The position numbers were made by a program, and so were the translations under genes. The notes under the pieces were generated by a model. The model was given only the letters and a program-made list of their open reading frames with translations. It was not told the DNA's origin and made no database searches. From Actinomycetota bacterium (GTDB taxonomy: Bacteria; Actinomycetota; Coriobacteriia; Anaerosomatales; JAUXNU01), in assembly GCA_030682655.1 (NCBI GenBank), contig JAUXNU010000205.1, positions 1 to 64,000 on the forward strand: a stretch of 64,000 bases of DNA. Direction: 5' to 3'. Positions 1,784 through 60,645 of the stretch are shown here, piece by piece. Positions within the stretch are counted from its first letter, which is position 1; each line of letters opens with the position of its first letter.

Positions 1784-2302
1784 ATGAAGGCCGTCGTCGT
1801 GTACGAGTCGCTGTGGGGCAATACCGCCGCGGTAGCACGTGCGATCGCCGAAGGCATAGGACCCGACGCGCGTGCCCTCTCTACGGCAGAGGGCACACCC
1901 GAGACGATGTCCGATGCCGACCTGGTCGTGGCGGGCGCGCCTATCCTTGGCTTCAACCTGCCCACGGAAAGCATGCGCTCGAGCATCGGCAAGGATCCCC
2001 GACACGCAGCCCAGTCCCCGCCAGACCTTTCGCATCCCTCGATGCGCGCATGGCTTGGCAGTCTTCCCGCGGGCCATGGTCTAGGAGCCGCATTCGAGAC
2101 GCGCATCTGGTGGTCACCCGGCAGCTCGGCGAGGAGGATCGACGCCTCGCTGACGCGAGCCGGCTACTCACGGGCCACCGCCCCTCAACGATTCATCGTC
2201 ACGGGTGCCTACGGGCCCCTGAAGGACGGCGAGATCGAGCGCGCTCGCTCGTGGGGAAGGGACCTCGCTGCGGCCGTCACCCCTGAGGCATCGACCGCTT
2301 AG
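1784..2302 (+). CDS. flavodoxin-like protein
   Basis: A 172-residue protein that opens with MKAVVVYESLWGNTAAVARAI, a good match to the flavodoxin FMN-phosphate loop (T/S-x-T-G-x-T type, here ESLWGNT). The second strand DLVVAGAPI also fits a flavodoxin fold. The middle (about 65-115) is Pro/Ser-rich and does not resemble a classical electron-transfer flavodoxin, so it is better called a flavodoxin-domain protein than a true flavodoxin. The terminal region (VTGAYGPLKDGEIERARSWG) restores the fold's last strand and helix. It starts 25 bases after the citrate synthase stop, so cotranscription is likely. The electron-transfer partner is unknown. Confidence 0.7.
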   Translation: MKAVVVYESLWGNTAAVARAIAEGIGPDARALSTAEGTPETMSDADLVVAGAPILGFNLPTESMRSSIGKDPRHAAQSPPDLSHPSMRAWLGSLPAGHGLGAAFETRIWWSPGSSARRIDASLTRAGYSRATAPQRFIVTGAYGPLKDGEIERARSWGRDLAAAVTPEASTA

Positions 2303-2462
2303 GACCCCATGTCACCGTCTGGCGATTGCGTTGTGCCCAGGAACGCCTTCTCTCGCCCGTTGGTCGGGTACTTGCTACCTCACGGACGGTTCGATGCCGA
2401 ACTGACTAGTGGAACAGAATCGCAGCACATCCCGACCCGACGGAGCTCAGAACAGGCCCACC

Positions 2463-3806
2463 ATGCCCCACTCAACGGAGTCTCCTGCAACTGATGAGTT
2501 CTCCTCTCACCCCAATCCCCGTATGGCCGCTGAGTCGAGGGTGCAAGCCACGAAACGTCGGCTCACGGCCTGGGTCGCAGGCGGAATGGCGATTGCAGGC
2601 CTTGCCGCGATGCCGCTCCTCATCTTCGGTCCTTCAGTCGGCCTGCCGCCGAGTCCCATCGGGGTGCTTTGGACGGTGGCACTCTTCATCTTCGCGCAGG
2701 CATGTGCATTCGTGCTGGCAAGCGTCCCGGGGCGCATTGTGGCAGCCACGCTGCTGTCGGCCGGACTCCTCACCGCCGTTCCCGTGGCCTTCCCCTTTCT
2801 CATGCCCGACAACCAGACATTCGCGGTCCCCACGCTCATGTTCGCGTCGATTCCCGTGCTCCTCGTGGCCATTGTCCTTGGCTCGAAGTGGGCGCTCGCC
2901 GCAGCGTCGCTCGCTGCAGTTGGCCTGCTGGCTCTCGCGCCGTGGCTGGTTGCGAAGGGAGCTGCGGAGCACCTTGTCGCACCTACAGTCATGCTCGTCA
3001 TCCTGACGATCATCTCGGTCTCCGTGGCTCAGACCGAGTCGCGCCTGCAGACACTGACCGATCAGCGGGCCCGGGAGCTTGAAGACACCAACGCCGAGCT
3101 GGTACGAGCGGCACGGGTCAAGAGCGAGTTCCTTTCGAACATGAGCCACGAGCTGCGAACCCCGCTCAACTCGATCATCGGGTTCTCGGGAACGCTCTTT
3201 GGCGAACTCGCGGGACCCATAACCGAGGAACAGCGCATCCAGCTCTCGATGATCGACAACTCCGGTCGCCATTTGCTCGAGCTCATCAACGGCCTGCTCG
3301 ATTTCTCGCGCATCGAGGCGGAAGCGCCGGAGCTCACGATCGACGACGTGGATCTTCAAGCGCTGTGCCAGAATGCGCTGAACATGGTGCGCCCGATGGC
3401 CGACGCGAAGGGCCTGACCCTCGAGTCCTCGTACTCCGACTCGGTCGCGCGAGTACGGACCGACCCGACGCGGCTCACCCAAATTCTCCTGAACCTTCTC
3501 GCCAACGCGGTCAAGTTCACGGACAGCGGATCGGTTCGCCTGGACGTCTCCAGATTAGGTCCCGAGTGCGTGTTGTCCGTGAGCGATACCGGCTGCGGCT
3601 TCCCGGAGGTCGAACGCGAGCGCATCTTCGAGCCCTTCTACCAGGTGAGGCCACTCGAAGGCGGCAAGACCAGCGGCACGGGGCTCGGGCTCAGCGTGTC
3701 GCACCAACTCGCCGGGGCACTCGGCGCGCGGCTTGAGGCAGAAAGCACCCCCGACGAAGGCTCGACATTCCGCCTCCTTCTTCCCGTAGAGGGCCCTCCC
3801 CGGTAG
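2463..3806 (+). CDS. membrane sensor histidine kinase
   Basis: An orphan sensor kinase of about 447 residues. Roughly residues 35-185 contain five or six hydrophobic segments, then a short coiled region (QTLTDQRARELEDTNAELVRA) leads to HisKA with the phospho-acceptor motif SNMSHELRTPLNSIIGF. The ATPase domain has the N box NLLANAVKFT, the G1 box DTGCGFPE and the G2 box GTGLGLSVS, so it should be active. No response regulator lies next to it and there is no periplasmic sensor domain, which suggests sensing within or at the membrane. The start is uncertain: ATG 2463 was chosen, but GTG 2409 and ATG 2523 are in frame and none has a convincing ribosome site. Confidence 0.88.
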   Translation: MPHSTESPATDEFSSHPNPRMAAESRVQATKRRLTAWVAGGMAIAGLAAMPLLIFGPSVGLPPSPIGVLWTVALFIFAQACAFVLASVPGRIVAATLLSAGLLTAVPVAFPFLMPDNQTFAVPTLMFASIPVLLVAIVLGSKWALAAASLAAVGLLALAPWLVAKGAAEHLVAPTVMLVILTIISVSVAQTESRLQTLTDQRARELEDTNAELVRAARVKSEFLSNMSHELRTPLNSIIGFSGTLFGELAGPITEEQRIQLSMIDNSGRHLLELINGLLDFSRIEAEAPELTIDDVDLQALCQNALNMVRPMADAKGLTLESSYSDSVARVRTDPTRLTQILLNLLANAVKFTDSGSVRLDVSRLGPECVLSVSDTGCGFPEVERERIFEPFYQVRPLEGGKTSGTGLGLSVSHQLAGALGARLEAESTPDEGSTFRLLLPVEGPPR

Positions 3807-3915
3807 CCCGTGCTTCGCGTTGCCCGTCGCGACCGAGCCCACAGACTACCCCTGCGAATCACGCGCGAAACCGCTAGGATAGGCGGGGAAGTCCTACTGG
3901 GAGGGGCACCGTCAG

Positions 3916-59562: not shown

Positions 59563-59690
59563 GAATCAACCTTACCCGTGATCGAACCAGCCGTCACGCT
59601 GTTGGCTCCCTCATATCCGCAGTTCATCCCCAGGCTAGGCTGGAACCGGACAAGTGGCGCACCTGCCTCGGTGAGCGGCGTCGACAAGGC

Positions 59691-60053
59691 TCAGTCGCCA
59701 AGCGCATCCATCTCTCGAAGCATTGCCCGAAGCTGCAGGAGAATCGCGGGCACGCTCATGCGTACCGTCGAGACCACGACGTTGTCGTCAAGTCCAAAGT
59801 AGTGGTGGACGATCTTGTCCCTCATGCCCGCGATGCGTTTCCACGGGATGTCTGCATAGCGCAGCACCCACTCCTCGGACACTTGCTTGGACGCCTCTCC
59901 CAGAACCGTGAGGTGATGCATGACAGCTCCCCGCACCGGCCGCCGGGGATCGGGCAACTCATCGTCAGAAACACCCTGTGCGAAGGCGATGATGTACTCA
60001 CAGGACTCAATCATGTCCCGAACCGGCGAGCCAATATCACGCTCCCAAGACAT
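59691..60053 (-). CDS. hepT: HepT-like toxin (DUF86)
   Basis: A 120-residue HEPN-domain toxin. The R-x4-H-x-Y active motif is present as R78, H83 and Y85 in MRDKIVHHYFGLDD. The opening DIGSPVRDMIESCEYIIAF and LTVLGEASKQVSEE also fit HepT. HepT cleaves RNA until its partner MntA modifies it by adding AMP to the Tyr. ATG 60053 has GGGGAG seven bases upstream, overlapping the end of mntA by 17 bases, so toxin translation depends on the antitoxin. Confidence 0.92.
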   Translation of the reverse strand: MSWERDIGSPVRDMIESCEYIIAFAQGVSDDELPDPRRPVRGAVMHHLTVLGEASKQVSEEWVLRYADIPWKRIAGMRDKIVHHYFGLDDNVVVSTVRMSVPAILLQLRAMLREMDALGD

Positions 60054-60645
60054 GCACTCTCTCCCCGTCAACGTACGACCGCACATGGGGGCGTAGCGAT
60101 GCGAAGGAGCCCGCATCGGCCTTGCGGCCCAGAAGCTCAGTCAGGTACTCCTCGGACCCGAAGACCGTGTCCAGCGTTGGTACGGCGACCTCCACGATGA
60201 GGTCCACATCGCTGTCCGATCGCTGCTCGCCCCGTGCGAACGATCCAAAGACGTCAACTCCGGTCACCCCATAGCGCTCTTGCAGCTCTGCCGCATGCGC
60301 CCGAATGCGAACGATGACCTCGCCGAGGTCGCGAACTGGTGCCGAGCGATCGGCCCCGGACGTCTCTAGCACGGCGGCACCGTAACCCGCTTGCTCCTCG
60401 GCGGCCAGAGGCGACTCCGTGGCACCCTTGGCCTCCCCGCCAAGGAGAACCGCCGCGACGCCGAGCCCGAGGGCTGTCGCGACTCTCGTGAGACGCGACA
60501 GCGAAACGCACCCATACCGCTCACGCTCCCAGCGGGCGATCTGCTGTTGGTGGATGCCTAGCTGCGCGGCGAGCTCGCGCTGCGTAAGCCCGCGTGCGAT
60601 GCGCGCAGCCACGAGTGCGACTCCGATGTCCTCTTGAACGGTCAT
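60037..60645 (-). CDS. mntA: MntA-type nucleotidyltransferase antitoxin fused to an XRE DNA-binding domain
   Basis: A 202-residue antitoxin. Residues 5-65 are an added XRE helix-turn-helix (ARGLTQRELAAQLGIHQQQI, ARWERERYGCVSLSRL). Residues 105-202 are the minimal nucleotidyltransferase domain with GSFARG (134-139) and DSDVDLIVEV (Asp 146 and 148), the GSx10DxD motif. It is expected to AMPylate HepT. The usual MntA is the enzyme domain only; the extra domain should let the antitoxin repress its own promoter, whose palindrome lies directly upstream. The mRNA appears leaderless at ATG 60645. Confidence 0.9.
   Translation of the reverse strand: MTVQEDIGVALVAARIARGLTQRELAAQLGIHQQQIARWERERYGCVSLSRLTRVATALGLGVAAVLLGGEAKGATESPLAAEEQAGYGAAVLETSGADRSAPVRDLGEVIVRIRAHAAELQERYGVTGVDVFGSFARGEQRSDSDVDLIVEVAVPTLDTVFGSEEYLTELLGRKADAGSFASLRPHVRSYVDGERVHVLGA

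Follow-up and report, generated by a model that had tools for sequence, protein, structure and literature searches.

Copies of the word in the window

The stretch of DNA analysed here (the window) comprises positions 1 to 64,000 of contig JAUXNU010000205.1 (assembly GCA_030682655.1), from a genome placed in the Coriobacteriia of the phylum Actinomycetota. It contains 59 called genes, 47 of them on the minus strand, and a field of 94 copies of the octamer GCCRAGGA spread over positions 1-64000 (pattern count; 51 copies on the plus and 43 on the minus strand). The copies fall into two variants, 42 of GCCAAGGA (the A variant) and 52 of GCCGAGGA (the G variant). Few natural classes of words that recur throughout a genome are understood, namely Chi, uptake sequences, HIP1 and the FtsK-orienting sequences (KOPS). 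A new word of this strength in the Actinomycetota points to a process that reshapes the whole genome.

The A variant was found on the plus strand 30 times and on the minus strand 12 times, against 1.69 on average and at most 6 in 100 dinucleotide-preserving shuffles. An earlier reading of this DNA from its letters alone (the sequence-only reading) had counted 28 and 12 copies, of which the minus figure stands and the plus figure does not; its claim of an excess far beyond chance is borne out. The plus-strand copies, located like all others by pattern count, lie at 6360-6367, 6618-6625, 7143-7150, 9275-9282, 9332-9339, 11024-11031, 12978-12985, 13200-13207, 19580-19587, 19954-19961, 20568-20575, 21740-21747, 23111-23118, 30457-30464, 31433-31440, 32049-32056, 34700-34707, 39807-39814, 40715-40722, 41996-42003, 42666-42673, 42776-42783, 47980-47987, 49627-49634, 53014-53021, 55100-55107, 56177-56184, 57776-57783, 58373-58380 and 60439-60446. 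Those on the minus strand lie at 1944-1951, 2875-2882, 9146-9153, 9540-9547, 12059-12066, 18773-18780, 24629-24636, 26100-26107, 28032-28039, 32043-32050, 50240-50247 and 54142-54149.

The 52 copies of the G variant, against 6.06 expected, lie within positions 53-63111. The 21 plus-strand copies start at 11613, 12472, 14827, 17999, 23322, 24803, 26710, 36974, 44614, 44942, 45691, 47473, 48038, 49669, 50462, 51976, 54662, 55003, 55826, 63042 and 63104. The 31 minus-strand copies start at 53, 4564, 5695, 9885, 10746, 13839, 15192, 15465, 17829, 18968, 19352, 19943, 20922, 24108, 25365, 33840, 39295, 39790, 40270, 42981, 44375, 44906, 46214, 46712, 47894, 49595, 55602, 58383, 59141, 60395 and 62948.

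As had been reported, the A-variant copies occur in many unrelated genes and also outside genes, at 42666 and 54142; a further one outside called genes lies at 24629. The copy at 24629 is spaced from a called start as a ribosome-binding site would be, that at 54142 is followed by a possible start codon at Shine-Dalgarno distance, and that at 42666 is not at a gene start. The opposed pair of A-variant copies that forms the palindrome 32043-32056 is present as claimed. The copies at 19954 and 39807 form inverted pairs with G-variant copies at 19943 and 39790, respectively. The A variant is followed 24 times by G, 11 times by C, 4 times by T and 3 times by A; the described G or C is a preference and not a fixed feature. 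The control set against it, GCCAAGG with C, G or T as the next base, had been put at about 11 copies and was found 15 times (C 3, G 4, T 8). Another palindrome, CGATATCG, is present in the window in 16 copies, with 3.4-3.9 expected.

Genome-wide counts and definition of the word

The source genome (G000) is a draft metagenome-assembled genome (MAG) of 2.94 Mb in 221 contigs, some of which may be foreign, with a completeness of 97.4% and a contamination of 4.62%. A genome-wide count, proposed as a check in the sequence-only reading, showed that the excess is not local. The A variant occurs 1284 times (616+668) in the draft genome, and its reversed word 128 times (56+72). For the G variant the figures are 1840 (964+876) and 254 (123+131). 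Together, the two variants provide 3124 copies, or about one per 0.94 kb. The likening of the density to that of known uptake signals in the sequence-only reading is supported.

The sequence samples analysed below together cover about 20% of the source genome and were not drawn at random. The largest sample, of 592 kb, consists of the window and 30 further stretches with 575 genes, which were called with a simple script of our own and not with a standard gene caller. In a sample of 312 kb with 173 copies of the A variant, its single-base neighbours are present in 1 to 29 copies each, save the G variant with 241. Because the G variant alone among these neighbours is also in large excess, the true word is taken to be GCCRAGGA. 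The word originally described is half of the signal but not the whole of it, the G variant having been overlooked. The GCCRAGGA signal is genuine, genome-wide and was under-described. In the same 312 kb, the words CTACTACA/TGTAGTAG were found in 18 copies, with 1.3 expected from an order-2 Markov model.

Protein code, codon usage and intergenic DNA

One rival to a DNA-level signal is that the excess arises as a side effect of codon usage or codon pairing, of protein composition or of ribosome-binding sites. The commonest frames of the word, NTC-CTT-GGC and GCC-RAG-GAN, agree with such an origin, as does the sparseness of the weaker words of most sampled relatives between genes. Coding DNA was compared with synonymous-codon shuffles, in which proteins and pooled codon usage are fixed while codon pairs and the usage of single genes are free to vary. 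The number of shuffles was 100, 12 (275 kb), 20 (312 kb), 40 (592 kb totals) or 25 (words one base off), depending on the run.

Coding DNA of the 592 kb sample contains 736 copies of GCCRAGGA, against 235.5 under synonymous shuffling, and the sense copies (+261) contribute nearly as much to the excess as the antisense copies (+239). In 275 kb, the A variant has the highest z score (155 copies vs 31) of all octamers present 10 or more times in coding DNA. Of the 12 frame-by-orientation cells in the 312 kb sample, 11 lie above the synonymous expectation, several of them with 1-8 copies only. Observed and expected copies in the three phases were 37/18.1, 4/0.3 and 4/0.0 (sense) and 16/1.3, 93/11.4 and 1/0.1 (antisense) for the A variant, and 144/47.6, 5/0.8 and 8/0.9 (sense) and 31/5.1, 36/34.1 and 3/0.2 (antisense) for the G variant. 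The one flat cell, antisense phase 1 of the G variant (36 vs 34.1), is a place where the A variant serves the same proteins.

The choice of single codons leads to the same result. Between NTC and GGC, where it completes the word, the leucine codon CTT accounts for 93 of 136 CTN codons (68%). In control contexts its share is 13-31%: 69/325 before GGC without a preceding NTC, 82/640 after NTC without a following GG, and 11/36 after NTC before another GGN. The alanine codon GCC is used in 144 of 159 cases before GAG-GA and in 289 of 507 before other GAG, and likewise in 37/47 cases before AAG-GA and in 123/241 before other AAG. At each of the three kinds of site examined, the codon that completes the word is thus chosen in 68-91% of cases. 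Since CTT and GCC rise only in word-completing contexts, the codon preference needs the whole octamer.

Outside called genes (65.6 kb, which may include some uncalled genes) the A variant was found 24 times against 3.8 expected from an order-3 Markov model, the highest z score of all octamers with at least 8 copies, and the G variant 25 times against 5.9. The total is 49 intergenic copies of GCCRAGGA against 9.7. In a smaller sample, 5 of 32 intergenic copies precede the start of a called gene in the manner of a ribosome-binding site, and for 12 others a possible start codon lies at Shine-Dalgarno distance. Ribosome-binding sites as a cause were rejected, as they explain few copies, and most copies lie inside genes.

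Codon usage does not account for the GCCRAGGA excess, and protein composition was rejected as its cause along with it on the basis of the synonymous shuffles. Neither of the two outcomes that the sequence-only reading gave as refuting the motif, genome-wide counts close to the Markov expectation or an enrichment due entirely to codon pairs with no intergenic signal, has come about: the excess persists under shuffles that preserve proteins and pooled codon usage, and it extends to DNA between genes. As the excess is still present when protein and codon usage are held constant, and occurs in rare frames, in both orientations and between genes, an origin as a coding or ribosome-binding by-product is very improbable. 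The word is more frequent than the protein code explains, and for this reason it is probably read as DNA.

Synonymous expectations were also calculated for the words one base off GCCRAGGA. Some near misses are depleted, namely GCGGAGGA (29 vs 144), GCAGAGGA (11 vs 46) and GCCCAGGA (30 vs 75). All 44 such words pooled show little depletion (2105 observed, 2208 expected); the depletion concerns the synonymous alternatives to GCCRAGGA. Others are raised, as in the case of GCCAAAGA (37 vs 10), GCCGATGA (131 vs 70) and GCCGAGAA (87 vs 53), and the recognised word may therefore be slightly looser than GCCRAGGA.

Strand distribution

The 28:12 bias reported for the A variant had been taken to suggest a Chi-like or polar motif. 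KOPS are strongly strand-polar, and a segregation motif of this kind, recognised by FtsK, would, like GCCRAGGA, be a short asymmetric genome-wide word. The 30:12 split that the A variant shows in the window agrees with this reading. It follows, however, from gene orientation, because most genes of the window lie on the minus strand and the A variant is mainly antisense, over Leu-Gly codons. Both variants together are split 51:43 in the window and 379:406 in 592 kb, counted by strand and not by replication arm, and GCCRAGGA thus differs from KOPS in showing no strand polarity. With the excess also near equal in sense and antisense, a KOPS-like function is already contradicted and can practically be set aside. 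An apparent run of 65 plus-strand sites in one relative, G042, was rejected as an artefact; eleven stretches of that contig gave a split of 39:49.

Relatives and related words

The Mfd protein encoded in the window is closest to proteins of MAGs titled Coriobacteriia, Actinomycetota or Actinomycetes (73-79%, four best segments), which agrees with the actinobacterial host proposed in the sequence-only reading. For comparison, 60 genomes of the same order were used, none of them of the same family. The A variant reaches at most about 125 copies per Mb in these relatives, against 437 in the source genome, and its density is no higher in 22 genomes reached via Mfd loci, several of which are the same genomes, to judge by their counts. 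Among 396 genomes drawn from the phylum, none matches the source genome in density; G087 comes second at about 218 per Mb, other genome sizes being rounded. G087 contains 283 copies in about 1.3 Mb, 9.8 times the reversed control, and the other four genomes listed for its family (f24) contain 44-66 copies. It is possibly an independent case of enrichment.

Totals of the G variant in the 60 order relatives range from 333 to 2627. Coding DNA (27-189 kb each) from 17 of them was compared with synonymous shuffles. In 14 of the 17, at least one word containing GCCGAG was enriched at least 1.9-fold, with differing flanks: CGCCGAGG in G004, TGGCCGAG in G050, TGCCGAG in G039, and the G variant itself in G013, G028 and G033. 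In the other three sampled genomes (G010, G011 and G016) GCCGAG words stayed below 1.9-fold. The A variant is clearly enriched in none of the 17, the highest ratio being 1.7 (G013, 13 vs 8). From these sequence comparisons, the R position may be read as a family-specific widening of a clade-wide GCCGAG signal, of which the weaker words of the relatives would be dialects.

Single relatives differ in further words. In G050 (L139-L143), TGGCCGAG has 102 copies in 100 kb against 16 from an order-3 Markov model, and 101 against 34 in coding DNA under synonymous shuffling, with one intergenic copy. G013 (L124-L128) contains CCAAAGAG (15 vs 2.8) besides its excess of the G variant, and GCCAAAGA (14 vs 4 in coding DNA), which is also raised in the source genome; the two are a possible further variant of the word. 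G016 (L129-L133) has no excess of the G variant, and its top octamer over an order-3 model is CGCCAAGG (34 vs 10.7).

Native and codon-atypical DNA

When genes longer than 600 bp were sorted into five bins of increasing codon typicality, the GCCRAGGA excess per kb rose from 0.15 through 0.80, 0.94 and 1.09 to 1.43. The trend is positive and weak (Spearman 0.18, p 6e-4), and the most codon-atypical bin, of only 16 genes, contains 5 copies against 3.0 expected. Three stretches poor in the word were chosen after their low counts had been seen, and serve as illustration and not as a test. One stretch has 7 copies in 19.3 kb, compared with 1.33 per kb overall; its large proteins, encoded at L021:1480-13441, resemble those of a defence island of the DUF1156/DUF499 type. 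A short contig with transposase and toxin-antitoxin genes has 0 copies in 3.8 kb. The stretch L027:566-4945 has 0 copies in 4.4 kb, and contains three genes that we take, from the starts of their sequences, to resemble cas2, cas1 and type II cas9. GCCRAGGA might help to flag foreign DNA in related MAGs.

Chi-like and methylation readings

A function like that of Chi would also tie the word to native DNA, and the low density in codon-atypical genes fits it equally. Working from a broken end, an AddAB-like helicase-nuclease would recognise the word on one strand, upon which degradation would stop and RecA-dependent repair would start; selection would then spread the word over the native chromosome. 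An adjacent pair of PF12705 proteins, one AddA-like and one AddB-like, is encoded in the source genome and speaks for Chi; that the AddA match is below its cut-off and the AddB match weak speaks against it. The Chi words given in PMC5959072 include GCTGGTGG of E. coli, AGCGG of B. subtilis and GCGCGTG of L. lactis; known ones measure 5-8 bp and are, like GCCRAGGA, over-represented and mostly GC rich. The same paper describes strand skew as insignificant in B. subtilis, S. aureus and H. influenzae. As skew is insignificant in several Chi systems, missing polarity does not exclude Chi.

The density of about one per 0.94 kb, however, is about five times that of E. coli Chi, which is one per 4.5 kb (PMC5959072). 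PF12705 nucleases were found in 55 of 61 genomes. No match was obtained in the other six, which include three members of family f7, G006 (99% complete), G019 (96%) and G034 (88%), and related words persist in two of these that were sampled: the G variant, which is the relatives' version of the word, is in excess in G006 (24 vs 8.4) and G019 (41 vs 16.9), although these MAGs may be incomplete. Conversely, G016 and G011 have at least two PF12705 matches each but no clear word. On balance a Chi-like role, the chief alternative to uptake, is rather unlikely; if it were correct, GCCRAGGA would be a Chi word for the Coriobacteriia.

The word could also be the target of an orphan methyltransferase or of an abundant chromosome-binding protein, in the manner of HIP1 or of a nucleoid organiser, whose sites would then be under selection for methylation or packaging. 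The very high density on both strands, in coding and in intergenic DNA, would suit such a role, whereas the usual avoidance of restriction targets in genomes speaks against it. HIP1 of the cyanobacteria (GCGATCGC) is likewise an octamer in great excess within one lineage, and is linked to orphan methyltransferases (PMC4390886). But HIP1 is palindromic and tied to GATC/CGATCG methyltransferases (PMC4390886), whereas GCCRAGGA is asymmetric. We regard this role as improbable.

Candidate DNA-uptake signal

The favoured reading is that GCCRAGGA is a DNA-level recognition word used for self-recognition during natural transformation, a candidate uptake signal that marks the native chromosome; we give it a probability of about 0.4. 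Fragments that bear the word would be favoured by a DNA-binding part on the surface of the type IV pilus/ComEA/ComEC machine. Imported word-bearing alleles would replace wordless alleles, and the word would accumulate wherever the protein code permits. Both the binding of GCCRAGGA by some factor and uptake as the process are inferred here.

A natural-transformation gene set, as expected for a species with such a signal, is encoded in the source genome. Profile searches gave a ComEC match above the curated cut-off, with a ComEA-type protein adjoining, and a PilT match above the cut-off; PilB-, PilC- and pilin-like proteins were found below their equivalog cut-offs, and DprA is encoded as well.

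The closest parallels are the DNA uptake sequences (DUS) of the Neisseriaceae, such as GCCGTCTGAA, and the uptake signal sequences (USS) of the Pasteurellaceae. Both are short non-palindromic words in thousands of copies, inside and between genes, and both are without orientation preference; the same holds for GCCRAGGA (379:406). Lineage variants may be a further likeness, the putative dialects here being the GCCGAG words with differing flanks in the 14 of 17 relatives. DUS dialects follow the core-genome phylogeny (PMC3630211), and the distribution of uptake sequences in mobile elements differs from that in the chromosome (PMC7371117). The density, the absent orientation, the lineage variants and the scarcity in atypical genes would favour the uptake reading by analogy with DUS. 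Differences lie in the sequence and the phylum, in the putative nature of the uptake role, and in the lack of terminator-type inverted pairs, which are common but not defining in DUS and USS. The Neisseria DUS is a 10-mer (PMC3630211), and GCCRAGGA has 8 bp with one two-fold position.

Several observations weigh against an uptake signal. ComEC is encoded order-wide, in 54 of 61 genomes, and pilus-type ATPases of the T2SSE family in all 61; G011 and G016 lack the word yet have an ordinary ComEC. Gene presence therefore does not predict the motif, and ComEC, T2SSE ATPases and PF12705 nucleases are so widespread that their presence hardly discriminates. The words of the relatives are in only about 2-4-fold excess and mostly sparser between than within genes, a comparison made without an intergenic expectation; part of the relatives' signal may thus be codon context. 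Copies of GCCRAGGA in 592 kb are spaced at random (coefficient of variation 1.06). Gene ends show no recurrent inverted pairs: the convergent intergenic DNA (4.95 kb) contains one copy, and close inverted pairs number 14 genome-wide against about 11 by a density estimate. Finally, uptake is described as independent of sequence in almost every competent species apart from Neisseria and Haemophilus (PMC12040237).

A preference for inverted pairs was not used as evidence, being weak. Among neighbours within 60 bp in the 592 kb sample, 28 of 64 are of the hairpin type, and pairs within genes are split 26 vs 15, compared with 43 vs 39 among those that the protein code permits.

Transformation of the actinobacterium Micrococcus luteus has reportedly been published, and no uptake sequence for it came up in the paper listings searched. 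In the portions seen of the open-licence literature, no description of sequence-specific uptake in the Actinomycetota was found. GCCRAGGA may be the first DNA uptake sequence outside the Gram-negatives, located in an uncultured family of the Coriobacteriia, with older and weaker GCCGAG dialects in sister families, and arisen independently of the Neisseriaceae and Pasteurellaceae; this wider proposal is tentative, and the odds are against it. If GCCRAGGA is an uptake signal, sequence-specific transformation extends beyond the Gram-negatives, and the word would offer a handle on the receptor.

One family of the order, f11, stands apart in its ComEC. A divergent ComEC was matched in 6 of its 8 genomes (E values of about 1e-23 to 1e-30, where other families give 1e-43 to 1e-52), an ordinary match was obtained in one and none in one, and counts of the G variant are low in all 8. 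The coincidence of a divergent ComEC with low counts is at most suggestive of a link between ComEC and the word.

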